From: Hyaloraphidium curvatum
Lineage: Eukaryota > Monoblepharomycota > Hyaloraphidiomycetes > Hyaloraphidiales > Hyaloraphidiaceae
Direction: 5' to 3'
Length of the DNA stretch: 64,000 nucleotides
Assembly (NCBI GenBank): GCA_025558095.1
Contig: JAIVFI010000008.1
Coordinates: 620,001 to 684,000, forward strand
A model generated the notes under the pieces. The model did not search any database. It was given only the letters and a program-made list of their open reading frames with translations, and had not been told where the DNA came from. Of this stretch, positions 23,859-58,222 are shown piece by piece. Positions within the stretch are counted from its first letter, which is position 1; the number at the start of each line of letters is the position of its first letter. Made by a program: the position numbers and the translations under genes.

Positions 23859-24420
23859 TCAGTACACAACTCCGAGAAACTCGGCCAGGTAGCGGCGACG
23901 GGTCTCTCCGTTCCCCTGCGGAGCAGCCTCGCCAAAAGCAGTGAACAGAGCGTCCACCTGGTTTCCCTGAAGCGCTCGTAGCTCTCCCAGGGTAGTGGGC
24001 AGCGCAGCCGGTACGGGTCCCAGAAAGTTGAAAAGACGGATCGGGTGATCCCCTATGGTCGCGCGGCCATTGAACTGGCGAACGGCGGCCCGCTGCCGGT
24101 CCACTTGGAGGATGTTGAGCACCTGGGCCAACTGCTGGCTTAGAGCCTGCAGCTGCTGGCCTTGGTTCTGCAGCAGCTGGCCTTGGTTCTGCAGTTGTTG
24201 GTTTAGGACCTGCAACTGCTGGCTTTGGTTCTGAATCTGGGCCCCGAGTGCGTTCAGACCTGGTAAATGGTGAGTGCCCGGAGCGAGGCGCCATCCAATT
24301 AACAGACGCCACTTGGACAGCCGGCATGTTCGGGATCTTTTGGATTTCTTGAGCAGCTGCCGCAAGACCGTTTGCCAATGCGGCGAAGTCTGGCTGATTG
24401 GCTGCGCCTTGGGCGGCCAT
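23859..24420 (-). CDS. Gln-rich coiled-coil protein of unknown function
   Basis: Model: complement(23859..24236, 24313..24420), 161 aa. Exon 1 encodes a helical Ala/Gln segment (LANGLAAAAQEIQKIPN). Exon 2 begins with imperfect 7-residue repeats built on QNQGQQLQ and LNQQLQ, a likely coiled coil of about 45 residues, then a compact domain (RLFNFLGPVPAALP, LRALQGNQVDALF) ending TRRRYLAEFLG. The 76-nt intron uses a GTGGCG donor and an AG at 24237-24238; it is the only join I found that keeps both parts in frame and puts a CTGAAC branch before the acceptor. I do not recognise the protein. Divergent from the F-box gene, 254 bp between starts. Confidence 0.55.
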
Positions 24421-24674
24421 TGCTGGACCTGGAGGGGGAGGAGGGGGGGAGGTACCGCCCGCACCGCCGCCGCGCGAGGCTCGGGTGTGAAGGTGGAAAC
24501 TTCGCGTTCTACAGCAGCGACGCTCCGGCACCGAGACTGCGTTGCCGACACGAAGCTTTGGGGACTCGGGTGCGTGGGCACATTGGCGGCTCTCTCTCCT
24601 TTTTGAGAGTTAACGAAAGTACATACCGTCCCGTCCCCCTCTCCTCGTCCTTTCTGAGCGACGAGGCTCCCGCG

Positions 24675-26444
24675 ATGACCGACGCACAAACCGCGGTGCT
24701 GGAAGAGCCCCCGCCGGCGTCTTTGCTGTCGCTCCCCGACGAACTGCTGGTCGCGGTGACTGAGCGGCTCGACCGGCCGGCGCGGTACAGCCTCATCCGG
24801 ACGTGCCACCGCTGCTTCCGTGTTGCGCTGCCGCTGCTGTACGCCCGCCGGGTGAAGCTGTCGCAGCGGACGATTCCCGCCGAGCTGGTCGACCCCGCGA
24901 ACCCGCGGGCATCCTTCTACTCCCACGCGATCCGCAAAGCCTGGCTGCTCTTCTCTCAGGCGGACGAGGATGATGTCGCGGAATCGGATCAGGACAGGGT
25001 GCTGGCGTTCATCGACCGGTTCGGCCACAACCTGGTCTCGCTCGTCGTTATGGCACGGCTCCCCGACGGGGCCGTCCCGTGGTTCGAGGAGCATTCCGAG
25101 GGCAACGAGCTGCCGGACGAGTACGAGCCCACGCTCTACTTTCCCGTGCGTGTGGCCTTGGCGCTGCAGCGTTGCGTAAACGTCGCTTCGCTGGATTTCG
25201 TCGGCCTCCGCTTCACCGCCCTCACGCTGCTGGCGCCGTTCGTTCCTTCCGCGCGCCACCGGCACCGCACCGGCCTCGGCTCGGTCTCTGGCATCCGCGA
25301 GCTGGGCTTCGAGCGCTGCTCCTTCGAGGAGGACATCATGCCGCACCACCTTGCTTCGTTCAGCGAGCGACTCTCGCAGCTCGGCGGAGGGGCTGCGGCA
25401 TCGGCGGCTTCGGAGCTGCGCGCTCGCACCCGCGTGGACCGGCGGTTGCTTCCGTATCCGACCGATTGCGAGCTGCGCGATTCTGGCTACGACCAGCTCG
25501 ACTCGTTCGATCGGCTGTCGATCGCCGGCGCCTCCACGGACTCGGCACCCGTCGACTACGACGAGGAGCTCCCCACCTGGAAGGAAAACCCCGAAACGCT
25601 GCTGACCGTGCGCCGCAACCTCGCTCGCTCCTCGGTGCCCCTCCCTGTCCTCTACGCGCTCGAAGGCGGCAAAGCCGTCTGGGCCCTCCCCACCCCCCTC
25701 GAGCCCCCGCCGAAGCAGCTTCGTTCCCTCGCCCTGATCCGAAACCTGGGAATCGACATGGCGCGGATGCTGTGCATTCTGCAGGGCGGGTGGTGCCGCG
25801 CCCTGGACGAGCTCATACTGCTTTGCCTCGGAGCCGACGACGCGGACCTGCAGTGCATCGCGTCGGTGTGCCCGTTCCTGTCTCGACTGGACGTGGGACT
25901 GGACGAGAGGGCGACGGTGGAGGGCGTGAGGGCGCTGGTGGGCCGCTGCGAGGGCCTCGTAGAGTGGGTCTTGCGCTTGGGACGCGGTCCTGCGCCTGAA
26001 GCTGACGGCACCCTCCCTTGTCACAGGCTGTACCTCGACAACGCGCGCGGCGAGTTCCTCCAAGAACTTCCCGAGGATGCCATCCTTGAGATCTCTCGCG
26101 CGCACCACGTCGAATGCCTCTGGCTTCCTGAATGCACCTTCTCCCCCCGCGTCGGCGACGCGCTGGCGGCCATGCCCCACCTGCGCGACCTCAAGTTCTC
26201 GGGCTGGCCCACCGAGCTCGACTTCCACGCCGTCCTCGGGCTCTCGCGCAGCCGCAGCCTGCAGCGGCTCGAGGTCACCGTGTTCTACATCCTCGAAGAC
26301 GGCGAGCACCAGGTGATCGAGGCCCTGGTGGCCATGTGGACCACGCTCAAGGCCAGCCTGGCCCGCGAGAACCCGGCCATCACGACCGAGTTCCTGGTCA
26401 TGCACCTGACCACGGGTCGGTGGGAGACGACGCAGATCGAGTAG
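24675..26444 (+). CDS. F-box protein
   Basis: Intronless, 589 aa, ATG 24675. An F-box is visible at about residues 16-55 (LLSLPDELLVAVTERL, SLIRTCHRCFRVALPLLYA), the motif that docks a substrate receptor onto Skp1 in SCF ubiquitin ligases. The rest is Leu-rich with spaced repeats such as VASLDFVGLRFTALTLLAPF, SVSGIRELGFERCSF and LDELILLCLGADDADLQCIA, compatible with degenerate leucine-rich repeats that would recognise the target. There is no other recognisable domain and the substrate is unknown. Confidence 0.83.
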   Translation: MTDAQTAVLEEPPPASLLSLPDELLVAVTERLDRPARYSLIRTCHRCFRVALPLLYARRVKLSQRTIPAELVDPANPRASFYSHAIRKAWLLFSQADEDDVAESDQDRVLAFIDRFGHNLVSLVVMARLPDGAVPWFEEHSEGNELPDEYEPTLYFPVRVALALQRCVNVASLDFVGLRFTALTLLAPFVPSARHRHRTGLGSVSGIRELGFERCSFEEDIMPHHLASFSERLSQLGGGAAASAASELRARTRVDRRLLPYPTDCELRDSGYDQLDSFDRLSIAGASTDSAPVDYDEELPTWKENPETLLTVRRNLARSSVPLPVLYALEGGKAVWALPTPLEPPPKQLRSLALIRNLGIDMARMLCILQGGWCRALDELILLCLGADDADLQCIASVCPFLSRLDVGLDERATVEGVRALVGRCEGLVEWVLRLGRGPAPEADGTLPCHRLYLDNARGEFLQELPEDAILEISRAHHVECLWLPECTFSPRVGDALAAMPHLRDLKFSGWPTELDFHAVLGLSRSRSLQRLEVTVFYILEDGEHQVIEALVAMWTTLKASLARENPAITTEFLVMHLTTGRWETTQIE

Positions 26445-26548
26445 CGCGGCCCCCGAAGGACATCTTGCAGCAAGTGTACGCGAATACTAAACTCGATTCG
26501 AACGCCAAAGAAATACCGGGCCGCTACAAGGGCCGACCGTCCCGTCCG

Positions 26549-29500
26549 CTAGATCCCCGTGTCCAGGCCGTACCGCCTCAGGTACTCGACGCTGGCAAAC
26601 GACATGTCGGCCCTCGGGAGGGCCTCCCCGCGGAGCTGCTCCGTCCGCGTGGCGTGCCTCCACGGCAGCGCCGGAGGGCGGGCGTGGTCGTGGCCCCGGT
26701 CGCGGTGGTGCGACGAGTGCCGATGCCGGGGCGCGTAGCGCGCGGCGATGAGGTTGGCGCGGATCTGCTCGGTTGAGGCGTCAGCGCGAGCACTCGATCG
26801 GCCGACCGAAACACGCACGTCCTCCTCCTCCGTGGTCATCGACGCCCTGTCGTCCCCATCGTCCGAGCTCTCCTCCCTCCGCTCCGCCGGAAGGGGCGGC
26901 CGCCCGCCCCACCCCCGCGCGGGGGGGTCGAACACGACAAAGCTCCGCTCGGGATCGGAGCAGAGCTCGCTGATCTCCGCCGCCGCGTCGCGGGAGCGGC
27001 CCCTGCGCGCATCTCGTTCCCGCTCCCGTTCCCGTTCCCGGCCCCGGTCCCGGCGCCGGGGTGATTTCGCGCGCGGAGGGAGGCGTCCCCGCGCGGCCGG
27101 ACCCTCGTCTAGGCTGGCGGGGTCGCTGAACGCGAAACTCGCTGCGTCGGCGAGGTCCAGAAAGGAGCGTTCCGCGGGCGGTTGGCGCGGCCGCGCCTGC
27201 ACGGGGATGGGAGGTTCGAGGTCCGCGGCGGAGCGGTCCGGGCTCAGGGTGGGGTTGCGCGATCGCTGCCCGTGCGGCGGAGGATCGCGGTCTTCCTGGT
27301 TCACGGGGGGCCGCCGCTCGACGGTGAAGGTGGTGTTGGTGCCTACGGTGCGGTGGTCCGGCAGGGGGCCCCCGGAGGACGACGAGGCGGGCTGGGCCAG
27401 AGCAGGTTCCGCGGCGTCGACGCCCGCGGTGCTGGTCCCGGCCTCGGAAACGACCCTCGTCCTCGCCGGCGACGGCGCAACGGATGCGGGCTGAACGGCG
27501 GGCTCCGGCACCGGCGCCGGGGGTTGCGCCGCGGGAGCGGGCGCCGGCGGATCCGGCACCGGCGGCACGCCCTGCATCCCCATGCGCGCAAACAGCTGCG
27601 CCATCCACGCCATCCACATCTGCTGCTGCAGCGCGAGCTCGGCCGGGCTGGCACCGGGAGCGGGGGGCAAAGGGAACGATGGAGGCGGAGGGATGGCATG
27701 CGAGGCGTCGGCACTCGGCGCGGCCGAAGTCTGCTGCTGAAGGAAAGGTTGCTGGGCAGGAGGGGGCTGCTGCACGGGGGGAGGCTGCTGCACGGGCGGA
27801 AGCTGCTGCACCTGCGGGGGCTGCTGCGCCGCGACCGGCTGCACCGGCGGCGGCAGCTCCTCCTCCAGCGCATCCAGCAGATTACGCGTATCCACGCCCC
27901 TCCGGGGCGGGATCGGCGACGGCGGCAGCGCCGGCGGATCGAAGGGCAACTCGCTGCAAACACGCGCGCGTCAGCCCGGCCCACCCGCGCACGGCACGGA
28001 CGGACGACCCACATCCCCCAGCGCCGCAGGGCAAACATCCTGAACCCCTCCTCCTCCGTCGCCCCCGCCGGCACCGCCGCCAAAGCGCACCGCACGTTCC
28101 CGCCCTCCCCCCTCCCGCGCAGCCCCACCGTGCCGCCGAACGCCGCGAACGGGAAGCGGTCGGCCGACATGGCCGGCGGGATCTGGATGCACTCGTACGC
28201 CCGCGCCGATGGTTCCCCCGGCGAGACGAGGGCCAGGAAGGCCGCGCGCTCGGGGTTGCGCATGGGCACGCCCTCGCCGCGCGCCCAGGACCGGCGCACG
28301 GCGTGGCGGACGGCGGCTTTGGGGAGGTCGGCGGGGTCGCGGAGCCAGATGCCCGCGGGCGGGGCGCGGGCGAAGCGCGGGTCGTGCTCCTCGATCAGCA
28401 CCGTCAGCCCGGAGGCGTCGGCGGTGAGGTGGCCGAACTCCTCGAAGGAGGTGGCGCGCACGGTGGGTGGCGGGACGATGGGGGTGAGGGTGAGGGAGGG
28501 GTTGGGGACCAGGCTGCGGACTGCGTGGAAAGCAGGGTGGTCAGCGAGGCTGTCACAACCAGCGCATGCGCGGACCCACAGGTCATCTCTCCCGCCTCGG
28601 CATCCACCATCCCCATGGTCGGACACAGGCACGACGGCAGCCTGCTCCTCGACGACAACACGTAGCTCTCGAGCGTCTTTGCCATGAGCTCCCACTCGCC
28701 CACGCCGAACCTCCCCGGCCCCGCGACGACGGGGACCACCACGTCGCCCCGCACGACGACCGTGGGCTCGTACCGCTCCTCGCCGTCCTCGCCGCGGGGG
28801 AGGCGGCGGCCGGCGTCGAAGCGGTCCAGGAGGAGGCGGCGCTCCGCGCCGGTGCCGACGGCGCGGCCGAGGAGGAAGCCGACGTGGGAGCGGGGGTGGG
28901 AGATGGTGGCGAGGCGCGTGCGGAGGGCATGGAAGCAGGGGGGTTGGATGTCGACCGAGTGGGGGGGGAGTGAGTCGAGGGGCTTGAGGGCCGTGGGGCG
29001 GCCGATGGCCGTGCTGTCCCTGCAAAGGGGGAGGGTCGCCACGTGAAGATGGGTATCGGCGATCGGAAGCGTTGCCAGCCTACCAAAGGAGGGAGCCGGG
29101 TGCGGGCGGCCGGTAAACGTACTCGTCCGGCGGCGGCGGCAGGTCCAGCGTGCCGTTCGCGTACCCCCCGGCCGGGGCAAACCCAGCTGCCGTCGCGGAC
29201 CTCGCCTGCCCCACGCGGGCACCGTAGGGCGGGCTCAGGGGATCGTGCCGGTACGGCGAGTTTTGCGTCGTGTGAGGCCTAGGCGCGGGAGGCGAGGCCA
29301 GGGGCGGGATGCCGGCCCCAGGGGCGGCGCCGGCGAGGTGGGGTCCCGCCGCGTGCGGTGCCGGCGCGGGATCGTACTGGAACGTGGCAAAGTTGTCGTC
29401 GACCGAGGTGAAGGAGACCTGGGAGATGCCGAGGTCGTGGCCGGCATGATCCGCGGTGGGCTGCCGCGACCTGGCCGAGGCCGCCGGCGAGGCCTTGGGG

Positions 29501-30336
29501 GCAAAGAGGTGGCCCGTCCGCGGAGGCGGAGGTTCCTGGGGGACGGGGTGGTGGTCGGGGAGGGGGTCCGCGTAGCGGGAGGCCGCGGCCGAGTGCGCGT
29601 GGCCCGCAGCCGACGCGCGTCCCGACGCCGGCTGGTACTGGTACGGCCCCCTGACGTCCTCCGCGTGCTGATCCCGGAAGTCGCGGGGGTAGTTTGCCTC
29701 CCGCGGCGGCGCCCTGAACGCGTCCGCGGGCATCACGGCGGAGACCATGCCGCCGACGTGGCCCATCCTGCTGCGCCTGCTCTCGACCTCTGCCACGCGG
29801 CGCCTGAAGCGCTCGGCGTCCGACAGCGAGGCCGCGGGGTCGTATGGCGGCCGGGCGCCGTGGCTGGGGGCGGCGGGGCCGGGCTCCGTGGCGGCGCGCC
29901 TGCGAGCGGGTTCGTCCCCGCCGCGCGACCGCGAGCGAGCGGCGGCGGCGGCGGGCAGCCTGGGCCCGCTCCCGGTATCCGGCTTTGCAAAGTACGGGCG
30001 CCACGGCGGCCTCTGCTGCCCCGTGCGTTCCGGCTCCCCGCCGCTCCCCCGGTCCCCTTTCTGCGCCCCCGCGGCGACCCGCGCCGGCGCCCCGGCCAGC
30101 CCCCGCGCGGGCCCCGCGTGCAGCCCCGGCGCCCCGCGAATCGCCGCGTCATCGGTTGCGGCCGGCTGCACGCGCGTGCGGCCGTTGGCCAGCGGCACCC
30201 CCGCGCGCCGCACGATCCGCGTGGCGAGCTCGGCGATCGCCGACGGCGGCGCCGCCAGCGGGGCGAGGTCGTCGCGCACAGCAGTCGACAGGCCGAACGC
30301 GCGCGGCGTCCACGGCCGCTCGGCGGTCGCAGCCAT
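26549..30336 (-). CDS. STIL: STIL/Ana2-like centriole duplication protein
   Basis: Four exons: complement(26549..27953, 27998..28520, 28580..29019, 29084..30336), 1206 aa (human STIL is ~1290). Residues 1-415 are disordered and Pro/Ala/Arg-rich. A conserved N-terminal STIL-like domain follows: PGSLLWDSTAIGR (~413-425, across the first intron), VGFLLGR, LLLDRFDAGRRLP (~480-492), LTLTPIVPPP, PAGIWLRD (~620) and AYECIQIPP (~675). After a Gln/Pro-rich stretch there is a short amphipathic coiled coil (~841-866, ALQQQMWMAWMAQLFARM), where the Plk4-binding coiled coil lies in STIL. The last 18 residues hold a STAN-like motif, MSFASVEYLRRYGL; in animals this binds SAS-6 after Plk4 phosphorylation. 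Introns are 64, 59 and 44 nt and all phases match. Homology is inferred from several collinear motifs, not one. First ATG in the frame is 30336. Confidence 0.83.
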
Positions 30337-31120
30337 GTCGAAGGGGAAACGGTGGTCTTCGCGCGTTTCGCGGCCCGGGGTTCGCACAAACAGCCGCCAA
30401 CACGGACCGCGGATGGACAAGCTGCGCCGAGAGAAAACTGCCAATCGAATTTATTGCCCTGCTTTCGGAGGATTCCCGGGCGCCCGGCGCTGCCTGCGTC
30501 CGATTCCCGCCCCGGCCCTCCCCCACCTCTTCCCCGCGCAGCCCCCCGCCCCTTCCGCAGCCCACGGCATCCCGCCGCACGCTCACCGATCGCATCCAAT
30601 TTATTAACGCCATCGGATTGCAAGTGGGCGGGCCGGAATGCCGGGTCCGGGATGTCGGTCCAAAGATTCGGCTCTGAAGGGGAGGAACGGCGGGGGGCAC
30701 CGGACGGAAAATGGGCCGCACGGGCCCACTCCGACCACGGCGCCCGATTCCAAAGACCGCCGAATCCCGCGATGCGCGTGCCGGAAGCTCCATGGACGCC
30801 GCAGGGCCTCGGATGGGTTTGGGTGGCCTCCGTGCCGGCTTCCGGAGCAACGCCGAGGCAGGCCAGGTCCCCGGGCGGCCCTTGCCGGCGATTCCACGCA
30901 TGCAAATCCAACGAAATCGGCCGCGGGGTGCAGGTACGGGGTCCGGGGAAGGCCCCGGCCCGCCGGCCGGCGCGCAGCTCGAAGCCCGCGGCGCAGGAGC
31001 CCTCAAGCGCGTCATCGCAGCAATGTGCCCGCTTCAAAAGGTCCGCCAACGGCCTCGAAGCTCCGGCCCGTGGCCCAGACGCCGTCCCGTGGGAAGAAAC
31101 CACCCCGATGCCGGAGCCAC
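30337..31120. other. Gene-poor GC-rich region upstream of the STIL-like gene
   Basis: 784 bases before the tandem repeat begins. Long Arg/Pro/Gly frames exist on both strands only because stop codons are rare at this GC content. No domain or exon signal was found. The first 100-200 bases are probably the promoter of the STIL-like gene. Confidence 0.4.
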
Positions 31121-31470
31121 ATGCCCAAAGATACTGCCCGCAACATCGGGGGACCGCAGCGTGGCTCCGAGGTCGGCGGGAGGGGTCCATCTTTCGGCAG
31201 ATCCACGTCGGAGGGGCGCGCACCGCGAGCACCGGGTGCCGAACAACACCACGAAGCGAGAGAAATATGTCTAAACATGTTGCCAGCGAAATTGGCGGCC
31301 CGTAGGAAGCGCGCAGGGCCGGCGAGAGGGGTCGATCTTCCAATAGATCCACGTCGGCGGTGCGCGCACCGCGAGCGCCAGATACGGACCAACACCCGGA
31401 GGCAAGAGAAACATGCCTAGGCATGCTGTCCGCAAGATCGGGCGCCCGTAGCGGGCCTCCAAAGTCCGCC
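31121..31470. repeat. Degenerate ~146-bp tandem repeat, about 2.4 copies
   Basis: Three aligned blocks begin at 31121, 31267 and 31413, each opening with an ATGyCyAarr-like start and sharing long stretches. The best conserved core (GATCCACGTCGG, then GCGCGCACCGCGAGC) is at about 31200-31230 in copy 1 and 31345-31375 in copy 2; the third copy ends near 31470. Spacing between equivalent positions is 146 bp in both cases, with point differences but almost no length change. It is non-coding as far as I can see: the repeated minus-strand frame has no relation to a known protein. Confidence 0.75.
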
Positions 31471-37442: not shown

Positions 37443-39199
37443 TCACAATCGCTCGACAGCTCCGAGAAGCCTACCCAGGTCGCCCCTAACGACCTGCCTG
37501 GCGAACCTCACCAGCCTCTCCTTCGAGTCCAGCACCTCGATCTGCTCCGTCAGCGCGTTGTAGCGCACCGCGAACGGGCGCGAAGAGAAGTTGGTGGGGC
37601 TCGAAGTGTAGAGCAGGATCTGGTCCTTCAGCCCCGCAAACGATCCGGCCAGGAAGTACTTTGGCTGATACGCCGTTATGCCATATTCGGTGCGGCTTGC
37701 CAAGTCCGGGTCGAACGGCTCCCACTTGGGGCCGTCGGGTTGGCCGCCCTTGGCAATGGCCCAGTCGAGCTCGCCAAAGGAGGAGAGGAGGCCAGCACCA
37801 TACGCTCGGACGTCGTTCCCGCCGCCGCCGTTGCGAGGCTGGGACACGATGCCGAACTCGAGCGTGAACCAGTCTGCGGAAGAGGTGAGCTGCCTTGCCG
37901 ATCGAGCACCTCAGTGCCCCGAAGACTCACACAAGGTGGACAGCCGCTTGATCTCCTCCTCGGAAGCCCCGAGGCTGGCCAGCCCGATCTCCTGGCTGAG
38001 GTCCGCGACGTCGGGGTCGGCAAACAGCGGCACGTGCCCAATCAGCTCGTGGCAGACGTCGGGCTCCGGCGTGTACAAGGGCTGCGCGGGGTGACGAATG
38101 TACTGCGTCGCATGGAAGACGCGGAAGGCGAGTCCGTTCAAGAAATCGCGCGGCGACAAGAGGCCGGCAACAGGCCGCAGGGTGAAGCCCGTGGTCGCCT
38201 TCAGGAACCGGGAAACGTCCTCGAGCTGCGGGATGTTGTCGCGCCGGTACCCGCATTCGGATTCGAGCAGCGGCCACACGTAGCGGAACTCCTTGCAGGC
38301 GAACCGCCTGTGCATGTCCTGGAGCTTGTCGTACACGACGCCCCAGGCGCCCACCTCCTCCGGCGTGTACTCGGCGCGCGGCAGCGGCTGCCCGTGTCGG
38401 TACTCCTTCGCCTTGCGCGCGATCTCGATCCGGCGCTCGCGGTACCGCTCGTCCTTGAACCCGGGGTGGTCCGCGTCCAGCTCCACGCCGTACTGCAGGA
38501 TCTTGTCCGAGTAGGCGTCCAGGTCCGACTTTTTGCGCGGGAACCAGGGCACGCCGACGGTAGCTTCGCCCTGCGAGGCGTGGTACGCCGCGTCGCCTAT
38601 CCCGACGACGCGGACCTCCTTGACGAGGCCAAGCCCCGAGAACTTGTCCCGCTCGAGGCTCTTGAGGCCTTTGACGACCTGGTCCACCTCTTCCACGTTG
38701 TCTGCAATCCATTCGATGATGATGTCGTAGTCGAGCCGGCTCGTGGCCGACGGGCGGGACTCGATACGCTTCAGGCTGACCTCGAGGGTGTTGGAGAGAT
38801 AGGAAAGCACTCTTTCGAGGGCGCCGGTCCGGTCGGGGATCGTGAACTGTCCCGAAGCATGTTCACAGAGGAAACAAAGGAAACGCGAAGGCGGTTGGAG
38901 GGGGAAAGACGACGAGATATGAGGACGGCGGTCCCAGGTCACTTGACCCGGCCGGGAGCGAGCAACGCGGAGACGCTTACGTAGATGGTGCTCTTGAGTT
39001 CTCCTCCGACGGTTGCCGACGGGACTTGTGCCGCTTGAGCCACCGTAGCCATGGTGCGCCGGGGATCCAGGTGCGGACGGAGGAACAGCGAACCCCGGGC
39101 CGACGGCACGGCGGCGGCGAGAGGAACCGGAGCCGCGCGGGGTGCACATGCGGCGAGCCGCTTTGCGCAGAGCCCGAGCAACCGGACTGGAGCTCTCAT
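37443..39199 (-). CDS. PAH: Phenylalanine-4-hydroxylase (ACT + biopterin-dependent catalytic domain)
   Basis: Three exons: complement(37443..37873, 37931..38846, 38981..39199), 521 aa. It hydroxylates L-Phe to L-Tyr with tetrahydrobiopterin and non-haem iron. An ACT regulatory domain ([26 protein letters not shown]) precedes the catalytic core: [43 protein letters not shown], and the iron site [13 protein letters not shown] with a downstream QEIG (2-His-1-Glu). The C-terminus has [18 protein letters not shown]. The frame opens with an Arg/Ala-rich presequence-like stretch from ATG 39199; ATG 39052 (MATVAQ) would give a 472-aa cytosolic form nearer the usual length. The 134-nt first intron joins STIY to FTIPDRTG. 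Divergent from AAR2, 98 bp between the start codons. Confidence 0.95.
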
Positions 39200-39297
39200 T
39201 TGCGTGCGTTGAGCGCACGGGAGACGTCGACGGAGTTTCGCTGGGGGCGCGGGCCGAGGGGCAGCGGCAGAGGCAAACACCGCCGCCAACGCGTGAA

Positions 39298-40717
39298 ATG
39301 CAAGCCGCGTTCCTGGGGCTACCAGATGAAATCGAGCTCGTCCTCAATGGAGAGCTCACGTCGACGCCGCTCCCCACCTCCGTCAAGGAGGCCCGATCCG
39401 TTGCGGGATTCAGGAACTTGACTGGAATAGCCCACGCGATCTCCTGGAGGCATGTTCCTCGCAGCACGAGTTCATGCGTTGATTCTGACGCGTCTATACT
39501 TCAGATCAAAGAAAGCAGGCTCGCGAATTGAGCAGTCCGGGACCTGGATCCTTCCCGGTGACGAGTTGACAGTTCGTACGTGGGACGAGCGAAGTCAGGA
39601 GCTTTCTGAAGATTTGAAAGCAATGAGCCATGCTCGAAGGCTCTATCTGCGGAACCAGGCGCTCCTGGAGCCCCCCTTGGTGTCGTGGGTCGATGACGAC
39701 ATGGCAGACGCCGAGCGCTGGCGGAGGCTTTCGGACCACATCGAGCCGGAGCGCATCCGAGCGATTTTCCCACATTTACGGATCCCACGCTACGCGACAT
39801 TCGGCCGGAGAGAGCGCAGCGTCGTGGGGATTGATGTGCGCTTCACGCCGATCGCCATCGTTGGCGCTGACTCGCGCCGGGACAACGACGCACCCATGGA
39901 CAAGACACGGGTAGTGAACCAGCTCCTCGAGGGCTCGTTCGGGAAGCTTGATCTGGACTCTGCCTTCTCGGCCATGCTTGGAGAGCTGCAGATCGCGTTC
40001 GTTTCTTTCGTCTTCCTCAACTCATTCGACGGATTCGAGCACTGGGCACGTCTCGTGTCGTTGCTGTGCAGCTCAATTAGGCTCGTACACGACCATCCTG
40101 AATGGTTTTCGAAGCTCTTGACGGTCTTGCGGCCCATGTTCGAGGAACTGGCGCGCTCCTTCGGGACGAAGGACCTGGTGGCCGCGTTAGCGGGCACGTC
40201 CGGCAAGCTCGTCCCGTCGTCGAGCACCTTTCCCATCCACGAGCTCCAGCACCTGTCGGACACCTTGCAGCACTCATCCTTGCCTACCACGCCGCCTTTC
40301 GTCAAGCTGCAGGTCGAAGCGCAGCGGTTCTTCACCTTTATCCGGCGGACGTTCAACTGGGACCTCATGGGAGGAGAGATTGACGCCGTGCTGGACTCGA
40401 GGCTGGAAGGTCCGACTGTTGTGGGCTTTGACGGGATGCTTGAACCTGACGTCGATGGTGCTTCCGGGAGGATTCCGTCGCACAAGCGCCCAACTGCGTA
40501 TTCGGAATCCAGTGGCACGGAGAAGAAGCCGAGAATCAGCAATGGCAACAGCAATGGAGCTGCTCGTAGCCAGAACGGTGCATTTCAAAGTTCCCCGGCC
40601 GGATCACCTGCCAGAAACGCTGCAAGCGTTTCGGACGATGGAGGCGAAGACGACGGGACGGCTGAAAACGGCGAGACTGGCAGCGACGGCTTCGACGGGC
40701 TCGACGCCTTTGATTGA
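39298..40717 (+). CDS. AAR2: AAR2-type U5 snRNP assembly factor
   Basis: Two exons: 39298..39453, 39512..40717; 453 aa. AAR2 holds Prp8 during cytoplasmic assembly of the U5 snRNP. Seen here: the N-terminal strand [42 protein letters not shown], the landmark GIDVRFTPI, then the all-helical C-terminal half with [20 protein letters not shown] and [14 protein letters not shown]. The tail of ~90 residues is acidic and disordered. The 58-nt intron is placed at 39454..39511 for frame reasons; an acceptor at TTCAG (39504) has a better branch distance but breaks the frame, so this join is less sure than the rest. Confidence 0.85.
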
Positions 40718-55662: not shown

Positions 55663-55898
55663 GGAGGGGAGGGGGAGGGCGGAAGGGGATCGACGGGATC
55701 GGTGTAGGCAGGCAATGGGCAGCATGAGAAGGGGATCGGACGACGAGATCGGCGGGGATCCCGAAGTCCGAAGCGCGAACCACCGTCGAGTCATCTGATC
55801 GGGGATCCCGCCGCTGTGGCCACCCCTCACTGTCAACCCCCGGCCAAGGTCGGCTCCTCCCCCTCTCTGCCCCTCAATACCCTTCCGCCGTTTTCCCA

Positions 55899-58222
55899 AT
55901 GGAGCTCCCGCCGGATCCCGCGTCGCCGGTGCGGCCCGCCGCCAAGCGCGCGCTCTCGTCGTCCGCGCTCGCCTCGCCGCAAAAGGCCGCGCGCTTCGAC
56001 GCTGTTGCCGCGCACGCCGGGTCTCCGCACGGTTCGCCTGCGCGGGCGGTGCAGGCCGCCGAGGGGAGCCCGCCGGGGGCGCTGCCGGGGCTCGGCGACG
56101 CGTGGGCCGCGCGCCCCCCGCTGGCTCCCCTCGCCCCGTTCCCGCCGACGACCCCCGCGCGCCCGCCGCCGCCGCGCAGATCGGACTCGAGCTACTCGAT
56201 CGCGCAGCCCGACACGCCCGCAGACGGCAGGCTCACGCCGCTGGTCAAGCTGTTCGGCCCGGACTACTTCGGCACCCTCCCGCCCCTCCGCCGCACCCTC
56301 GCCGACTCGGACCTCGGCGTCGAAAATGACGAGCATGTCGGCACCGGAAACACACGCCCGCCTGCAGACCCCGCGCACCTGCCCACAGAGGTCCTCCAGC
56401 GCATCTTCGCCTTCCTCTCCCCCGCCTCCACGCCCGGCACACCCCCGCCCCCCCGTGCCGCCCTCTACGCCGCCGCCCGCGTGTGCCGCGAATGGTACTA
56501 CGCCGCCGTGCAGATGCTGTGGCGCGCGCCCGCCTGGCACTCGATCCACTCCTTCGAACGCTGGCTGGCCGCGTGCCGCCTCCCCGCCGCGGGGGACGGC
56601 GCGCCGCGGCCGGGGTGCACGGGGAGGCAGCTCGTGCGGAGGATCGAGGCGGGGAGGACGCCGTACCTGGTGCAGTACGTGCGGCCCGAGGCGGTGGAGG
56701 AGCTGGCGGGGAGGTTCGGCGGGATCACGCACCTGGACCTCGCGGGGTGCGCGGCCATGACCGACGACGCCGTCTCGAACTTTGTCTCTGCGTGGGTATC
56801 CAACTGCTGTGAAGTACGCTAGACTGACTGCTGACTCGTTCGTCCGCGCCCTTTCTCTGCAGAACGCCCCGCCACCTGATCTCGATCGACCTCTCCAACT
56901 GCTTCCGCATCTCGGACGTCGCCGTGCAGGTCATCGCCACCTTCTGCGGCCCCTGGAACCGCCTGCGCCGCCTGCTCCTGCGCAACTGCGGGCAGGTCTC
57001 GGACGCCTCCCTCAACCAGATCGCCGCGCACCTGCTCCCCTCCCTGCGCACGCTCGACGTCTCGGGATGCCGCCGCATCTCGGACCACGGCCTGCTCCAG
57101 TTCGCCCGCCGCTTGGCGGCCGCCGCGCCGCAGGGCGCCGGCCTGTCGCGGTTCGGCATCTCGGGGTGCTGGCGGCTCACCCGCACCGGGTATTTGCAGA
57201 TCCTCCCAACGCTGTTCGCCGCCAACCCGCGCCTGGCCTCGTTCGAGTCGTCGCTGCCGCTGCACCCGCTCGTCTCGGCGGACCAGGTCTTCGGCAACCT
57301 GCCCGTGGGCCTGTTCTCGGGGCTGACGAGGCTCGCCCTGCGCGAGGCCGAGAAATGCATCGACGACGCCGTGCTGCTCTCCATCTCGGCCGCGTGCGGC
57401 GCCGGCCTCCGCTCCCTCGAGCTGCACGGCGCCTCGCTCGTCACCGAGCCCGGCTTCGCGCGCGCCGCGGACTCGCTGCTCTCCCTGCGCCGCCTCGCCC
57501 TCCCGCAGGCCAAGGGGCTCGGCGACGCCGCGCTGCTCCGCGTCGCGACGCACCCCCGGCTCTCCGAGGACCTCGAAGAGCTCGACGCGTCGGGGTGGGG
57601 CATCACCGATGCCGGCATCGTCGCGGCTTTGGAGAACCCGGGGCGGGGCCGGCCGCTCCCGAACCTCGCCGTGCTCCGCCTGGCCGACTGCTCCGAATCC
57701 TCCTTCACCTTCCACGGGATCTTTTCCGCCGCGCGCGCGCTCGTCGGCCGGCCGGCGCGCGCCAAGCTGCGGGCGCTCGACGTCTCGGGCTGCATCGACC
57801 TCGACGGGGCCGACGGCCACCTGCACTTCCCCTGGATCGCCGCCGGCGTCCCCGCCGGCCTCCCGGCGCCCGCGCCCGCGCAGCAGGCCGGGTGGCAGGG
57901 GGTGCAGGGGATCGCGGCGACGGTGCAGGCGGCGCTCGCCGGCGCGCTGGGTGTGCAGCAGCATCCCGAGGCCGGGGCGGGGTACGAGATCGATGCGACC
58001 CCCGTCGACGACGCGTTCGTGGTTTCCCTGCTGACGGTGCCGGAGAGGCCGACGGGGAGCGCAAAGATCGGGGGGCCGGGGAGGTGGTACTGCGTGCTCG
58101 CCGGGGAGGCGCTGGAGAGGGTGGCGCGGGAGGGGATGAGGAGGGTCAGGCCGCGCGCGGAGAGGGTCGGGGAGGCGGTGGATCCCGCGGTGGGGGTGGC
58201 GATGAATGCGGCGGCGGGGTGA
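55899..58222 (+). CDS. F-box and leucine-rich-repeat protein
   Basis: Two exons: 55899..56791, 56863..58222; 750 aa. The first ~150 residues are Pro/Ala/Ser-rich. An F-box-like segment lies at about 160-215 (PADPAHLPTEVLQRIFAFL, ARVCREWYYAAVQMLWRAP). At least eight AMN1/Grr1-type leucine-rich repeats follow (ITHLDLAGCAAMTDDAVS, LISIDLSNCFRISDVAVQ, LRRLLLRNCGQVSDASLN, LRTLDVSGCRRISDHGLL, and others to LRALDVSGCIDLDGADG). The likely role is substrate recognition by an SCF ubiquitin ligase; the target is unknown. The 71-nt intron falls between two repeats and its removal continues the repeat register. The last ~130 residues are not recognisable. Confidence 0.82.

Follow-up and report, generated by a model that had tools for sequence, protein, structure and literature searches.

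Does a fungus without a known cilium carry the genes that start centriole assembly? The question was raised by a gene in a 64,000-nucleotide (nt) stretch of the Hyaloraphidium curvatum genome (contig JAIVFI010000008.1, positions 620,001 to 684,000), hereafter the window, where an earlier inspection of the letters, the original prediction, had proposed a STIL/Ana2-like centriole-duplication protein. In animals, PLK4 phosphorylates STIL, the STAN motif of STIL binds SAS-6, and a cartwheel forms (PMC7729032, PMC4554922, PMC5928214). Judged from its sequence, the gene is a divergent STIL. The host was taken from the outset to be a fungus, in agreement with the 74 Fungal_trans matches in its genome, 73 of them over the cut-off; NCBI taxonomy places H. 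curvatum in Monoblepharomycota.

The gene, its two conserved ends and its surroundings

The gene lies on the minus strand of the window and runs in frame through four exons, from the ATG at 30336 to the stop at 26549. Its three introns (29020-29083, 28521-28579 and 27954-28012, with lengths of 64, 59 and 59 nt) are all of the GT-AG type, and the spliced product has 1201 residues. The three introns of the original prediction are retained at these coordinates; its product of 1206 residues is not, a discrepancy that probably reflects a differing splice choice. Exon 1 (29084..30336) encodes residues 1-417 and supplies two bases of codon 418, comprising an Ala/Pro/Arg-rich N-terminal extension, which is probably disordered, followed by the beginning of the STIL domain (LLW). 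The first half of that domain is encoded by exon 2 (28580..29019; DRFDAGR, PTVVVRGDVVVP) and the second half by exon 3 (28013..28520; PPAGIWLRD, YECIQIPP). Altogether, the domain covers residues 416-680 of the spliced product, and its genomic span, 28174..29091, takes in introns 1 and 2.

STIL_N (PF15253) was the sole Pfam family found on the full protein, with 24 bits at full length (cut-off 27); when the 367-residue domain region was scanned alone, it scored 28.3 bits (E 1.1e-6), over the 27-bit cut-off. This match is short at its best stretch, which spans about 65 residues and profile positions 33-96 of 404. In the PDB, 5oi9/5oid alone was matched; it is residues 1-348 of STIL from Trichoplax adhaerens (PMC5928214), and its E value was 9e-7 for the full-length protein and 3.8e-8 for the piece, in a single alignment over residues 415-675 that includes exon 3 sequence. 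The strings from which a STIL-like N-terminal domain had originally been proposed all lie within residues 414-680, where the profile and PDB matches also fall. The identity to Trichoplax is 28%. Compared directly, the Trichoplax domain and the H. curvatum domain scored 33.9 bits; the best of 3000 shuffles reached 5.7 bits (1313 of the 3000 were reported), and the reversed domain -2.8. Similarly, a profile of eight animal sequences (seven STILs from a protein search plus 5oi9) scored 26.5 bits for the domain, 21.8 for the whole protein, 21.0 for exon 2 alone and 6.2 for exon 3 alone, as compared to 3.8 for the best of 3000 shuffles.

The other conserved end is encoded by exon 4 (26549..27953), which contains a Pro/Gln-rich linker, a hydrophobic helix-like stretch (residues 838-862, by eye), an RS-rich stretch, the STAN motif (26564..26776, residues 1127-1197) and the stop. 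The second block of this motif reads DMSFASVEYLRRYGL, a core of the consensus form DMSFAxxxYxxRYGL; the animal cores read DMSFATKKYMKRYGL in newt and NMSFATVRYMEKHNL in Trichoplax. The first block, ANLIAARY, stands about 50 residues upstream and was recognized by eye from its resemblance to vertebrate ANAIALKY; the printed full-length STAN alignment holds block 2 only. Two conserved STAN regions are reported to be protected when Ana2 binds SAS-6 (PMC7729032). A STAN profile was built from six animal STILs of five genera, two of the six being nearly identical. Against it, MSFASVEYLRRYGL (1184-1197) scored 15.9 bits as the best domain of the 130-residue C-terminus (E 0.004) and the full-length protein 11.0 bits (E 0.13), where E values, for sequence or domain, refer to a database of 5003 sequences including 5000 shuffles; the best of these shuffles scored 0.7 bits. 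Neither Pfam nor PDB gave a match to STAN. A match of the C-terminus to FKBP3 (E 0.11) was dropped as chance. The profile searches that the original prediction had proposed, with the STIL N-terminal family and with STAN, thus returned matches at both ends of the protein, and the STAN-like C-terminus that it described is borne out by the second.

Composition was considered as a source of these matches. Most of the protein is Ala/Pro/Arg-rich. A chance match in a GC-rich, low-complexity protein would be in keeping with this composition and with the full-length STIL_N score under the cut-off. We nevertheless consider chance extremely improbable, since the domain scores were approached by neither shuffles nor the reversed sequence, the STAN scores were not approached by shuffles, and the domain match falls in the part of the protein that is richest in hydrophobic residues. 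Their fraction per 100 residues is 0.27-0.37 at residues ~400-700 and 0.13-0.25 in the remaining full windows; from this richness we take residues ~400-700 to be the ordered part of the protein.

A public record for this locus, DFJ74DRAFT_514708 (hypothetical protein, H. curvatum; window 28607-29766), starts at Met191 of our model (29766), and the first 340 of its 347 residues are identical to residues 191-530. It has the same junction at intron 1 (29020..29083), leaves intron 2 (28521..28579) unused, and ends at residue 530 plus seven other residues that derive from a junction at 28682-28607. The record therefore lacks exons 3 and 4, that is, half of the STIL domain and the whole STAN motif. 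It might be argued from this end point that the public model correctly stops after exon 2 and that STAN is encoded by a gene of its own. However, the last junction of the record is noncanonical: it starts with GC and finishes with GG, and the one-base shift that is all its letters permit, made by hand, still gives no GT/GC..AG. A canonical 59-nt intron is available at the junction of exons 2 and 3, and one alignment carries the STIL homology across it. Two genes are accordingly a very improbable arrangement. The public gene model thus leaves most of the STIL gene hidden, and tables of STIL distribution that are drawn from predicted proteomes may under-count it.

Intron splitting bears on genome searches as well. 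A six-frame search of the genome with STIL_N gave no match, presumably because introns split the domain, and negatives of six-frame searches can therefore be false. Among proteins, a search with the Trichoplax domain recovered seven animal STILs, and a search with residues 400-745 found nothing among 8000 candidates, under a length filter that would exclude the 347-residue public record. Apart from that record, no fungal STIL was seen in the protein searches made.

STIL in a fungus is not new in principle, because PMC6559791 and PMC12094185 have already covered STIL in fungi or opisthokonts. In the former, STIL was among the centriole proteins searched, and centriole-biogenesis proteins were reported in chytrids only among the fungi surveyed; in the latter, STIL was scored across opisthokonts. 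PLK4 had been reported earlier in chytrids (PMC6070874). The original suggestion that this gene would push the Plk4-STIL-SAS-6 module back to the opisthokont ancestor is thus weaker than stated, the chytrid centriole-biogenesis genes and PLK4 being already published (PMC6559791, PMC6070874). Neither STIL nor outer-arm dynein genes were described for H. curvatum in the literature searched; such a row may be in the supplement of PMC12659703, whose starting set was 213 non-dikaryotic fungi and which shows H. curvatum. The interesting part is the retention of centriole-assembly genes in a fungus without a known cilium.

Several other features lie in or near the gene. Antisense to exon 1 is a 752-residue open frame (29047-31305, plus strand), probably a by-product of high GC, and a 146-nt unit in two tandem copies (77% alike) occupies 31174-31451, directly upstream of the STIL gene. 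A 21-nt tandem repeat of about five copies (24132-24233) encodes a Gln/Leu-rich, heptad-like stretch in an 875-residue minus-strand frame (23862-26486); it also stands directly upstream of a 713-residue plus-strand frame (24303-26441) with no Pfam match. Elsewhere in the window, a biopterin-dependent aromatic amino acid hydroxylase is encoded at 37914-39500 (minus strand, E 4e-103), and 55728-58219 (plus strand) holds an F-box domain and, in the open frame after it, leucine-rich repeats.

Partners in the genome and the proposed role

The original prediction turned on the presence of PLK4 and SAS-6 in the same genome, and both were found. The SAS-6 N domain was matched on contig C14 (E 3.3e-22, positions 42-135 of 135). 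On contig C17, PLK4 was represented by a kinase piece (2.1e-29), the polo boxes PB1 (1.9e-13) and PB2 (6e-20), and, at the place expected of the third polo box (PB3), a partial match below the cut-off (8e-4). The HRD, DFG and GTPNYIS motifs of the PLK4 locus lie in different frames, as separate exons. The matched pieces of both genes are free of stops, and the SAS-6, PB1, PB2 and main kinase pieces scored over their cut-offs.

We consider it highly likely that the gene is the H. curvatum orthologue of STIL/Ana2 and that PLK4, STIL and SAS-6 would start centrioles here as they do in animals. The assignment is also supported by the fraction of G or C at third codon positions (GC3), which is 0.81-0.97 in all 12 windows of 100 codons along the gene. 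The start of centriole assembly is its most likely function because the homologous parts are present. As in animals, PLK4 would be expected to bind and phosphorylate STIL, and the phosphorylated C-terminal STAN motif would then recruit SAS-6 dimers. The resulting SAS-6 cartwheel would seed a new centriole, which would act as the spindle-pole centrosome without forming a standard cilium. We infer that the gene is expressed, that its product interacts with PLK4 and SAS-6, and that centrioles are built in H. curvatum.

A number of observations weigh against this assignment. The public gene model stops before exons 3 and 4, the search with the Trichoplax domain yielded no fungal STIL from 1631 candidates, and SAS-6 and PLK4 are known as matched pieces of unassembled genes. 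Within the protein, the CEP85-binding helix of animal STIL is shortened and poorly conserved (by eye). A profile of the vertebrate STIL coiled coil (five sequences), the part that binds PB3 of PLK4 in animals, scored -1.2 bits as compared to 6.9 for the best of 3000 shuffles, and the short central coiled coil of the original prediction was not confirmed. Neither the CPAP-binding motif PRxxPxP nor the C-terminal LPKL box (LDxxRLxxLPKL), which is common in animals and was not treated as defining, was found in the 1201 residues. PRxxPxP binds the TCP domain of CPAP (PMC4554922), and a search of the genome for CPAP/SAS-4, which had been suggested along with PLK4 and SAS-6, gave no TCP domain match, nor did any control genome match. 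However, SAS-5 of Caenorhabditis elegans is also reported without PRxxPxP (PMC4554922), and the missing motif therefore does not exclude membership of the STIL/Ana2/SAS-5 family. With neither PRxxPxP nor a TCP-domain protein found, the step that hands assembly over to CPAP/SAS-4 may be absent or may have been replaced.

Tubulins, dyneins and the reported loss of cilia

H. curvatum is reported to have lost cilia and to lack zeta, epsilon and delta tubulin (PMC12659703), and it is listed without a flagellum (PMC10459994). The original picture of a centriole-building, zoosporic fungus is at odds with these reports. Among the flagellar genes, for which it had suggested a search, no genome match was obtained for the radial spoke proteins RSP3 and RSP4/6 or for the intraflagellar transport (IFT) protein IFT46, and no control genome matched them either; the same method did find SAS-6, PLK4, PACRG, dyneins and tubulins, but none of them serves as a control for the missing families. 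A weak match to IFT57 was dropped as it lay below the cut-off and similar sub-cut-off matches occurred in 3 of 14 control genomes; a scan of its candidate frame showed a generic coiled coil, to which six families matched below their cut-offs, CENP-F_leu_zip best. Outer-arm dyneins and a PACRG-family protein (E 8.1e-41, locus L003, 1495-2076, minus strand) were found. The gene for the latter, PACRG or PACRG-like, adjoins a proteasome beta subunit (by eye).

The tubulin search of the genome gave six matches at three places, assigned to alpha and gamma tubulin from their best PDB matches (for alpha, the best 60 of 69) and to beta tubulin from its translation, read by eye. It gave no locus for delta, epsilon or zeta tubulin. 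The centriole may have singlet wall microtubules, as neither delta nor epsilon tubulin was found. The steps after cartwheel formation probably differ from those of animals, because CPAP, the extra tubulins and the tested IFT parts were not found.

Dynein heavy chains were matched five times at three places, from seven candidates. One of the loci corresponds to cytoplasmic dynein 1, another to outer-arm beta, with DNAH9/17 as its best match, and the third to outer-arm gamma, for which DNAH5 matched best. These classes, like those of the tubulins other than beta, rest on the best PDB matches of pieces and not on trees; for outer-arm beta and cytoplasmic dynein 1 they derive from the best 60 of 84 matches, and the top entry for gamma, 9fqr_I3, is printed as CFAP57, but its length led us to take it for a dynein heavy chain. 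None of the three loci encodes a dynein-2 or inner-arm heavy chain. The outer-arm loci lie at C38:198631-207705 (L026) and C16:335228-344772 (L027), with L020-L023. The outer-arm beta gene has one stop-free frame of 3025 residues with DHC_N2, AAA_6 to AAA_9, the stalk and the D6 region, preceded by a DHC_N1 piece and followed by two Dynein_C pieces (profile 4-256 of 309). In the outer-arm gamma gene, the part between DHC_N2 and AAA_9 is covered by three open frames (1353, 932 and 895 residues), after which D6 and AAA_lid_11 pieces follow.

The outer-arm genes have a GC content of 0.51 and a GC3 of 0.56-0.58, that is, a weak codon bias. Contamination was considered as their source and rejected, because the GC content is 0.63-0.69 in eight further stretches of these two contigs; this is normal GC, and the contigs therefore belong to the H. 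curvatum genome. Elsewhere, GC3 was 0.90 for SAS-6, 0.84 for PACRG, 0.83 for the cytoplasmic dynein piece and 0.89-0.98 for the tubulins. Low values are not confined to the dynein genes, as the PLK4 pieces are also low (0.64-0.68).

The weaker codon bias of the PLK4 pieces relative to SAS-6 would suit a different history, in which centrioles were lost with the cilium and PLK4, STIL and SAS-6 either organize an acentriolar spindle pole or are decaying. The reported loss of cilia (PMC12659703, PMC10459994), the lack of a CPAP motif and LPKL box in STIL, and the failure to find a TCP domain or delta, epsilon or zeta tubulin are consistent with such relict or repurposed genes. Decay is not apparent in the genes themselves: STIL is open over four exons, and the SAS-6 and PLK4 pieces have no internal stops and mostly exceed their cut-offs. 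Moreover, other surveyed fungi, chytrids excepted, are reported without centriole-biogenesis proteins (PMC6559791). Loss of centrioles with retention of these three genes thus seems unlikely to us.

The outer-arm dyneins point to a motile stage that is still hidden, or else to a loss that was recent. It is conceivable, if somewhat doubtful, that a simplified centriole, without delta or epsilon tubulin, templates an axoneme that is driven by two-headed outer-arm dynein alone, with no radial spokes, inner arms or standard intraflagellar transport. In its favour, the outer-arm beta gene is open in one long frame and the gamma gene in pieces, and both lie on contigs of normal GC. The starters of the centriole and the outer-arm dyneins have been kept, and radial spokes, IFT46, the IFT dynein, inner arms and extra tubulins were not found. 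This combination suggests either that the centriole of a fungus can serve mitosis independently of cilia or that a motile stage has escaped notice.

Comparison with known systems

The H. curvatum protein shares with animal STIL, as represented by Trichoplax (5OI9) and vertebrates, the N-terminal signatures LWD, DRFDxGR, PT....GD...P and G(I/V)W and the C-terminal STAN signature DMSFA(T/S)xxYxxRYGL. Domain and motif stand in the same order as in the animal proteins, as the original prediction had noted. In contrast to animal STIL, it has an N-terminal extension of about 400 residues. PRxxPxP is present in all seven animal sequences and the LPKL box in six of them, whereas H. curvatum STIL has neither; the seventh (P0010) also lacks STAN and looks cut short. 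No coiled coil matching the vertebrate STIL profile was found in H. curvatum STIL. Ana2 of Drosophila is not known to have the STIL N-terminal domain. Its C-terminus, which binds SAS-6 (PMC7729032, PMC4554922), is of the STAN type, as is that of H. curvatum STIL, a likeness drawn from published descriptions. With SAS-5 of C. elegans, H. curvatum STIL has in common the lack of PRxxPxP (PMC4554922).

Among fungi, the chytrids (Rhizoclosmatium and relatives) are reported to have kept centriole-duplication genes, as has H. curvatum (PMC12659703, PMC6559791). The chytrids have cilia and CPAP, whereas in H. curvatum cilia are said to be lost and the zeta, epsilon and delta tubulins absent (PMC12659703). 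The sanchytrids, which have a reduced flagellum, are reported to have lost delta and epsilon tubulin and much of IFT while keeping kinetosomes (PMC8371127), and resemble H. curvatum, where delta and epsilon tubulin and the tested IFT parts were not found. The sanchytrids have lost axonemal dyneins, whereas H. curvatum keeps two outer-arm heavy chains.

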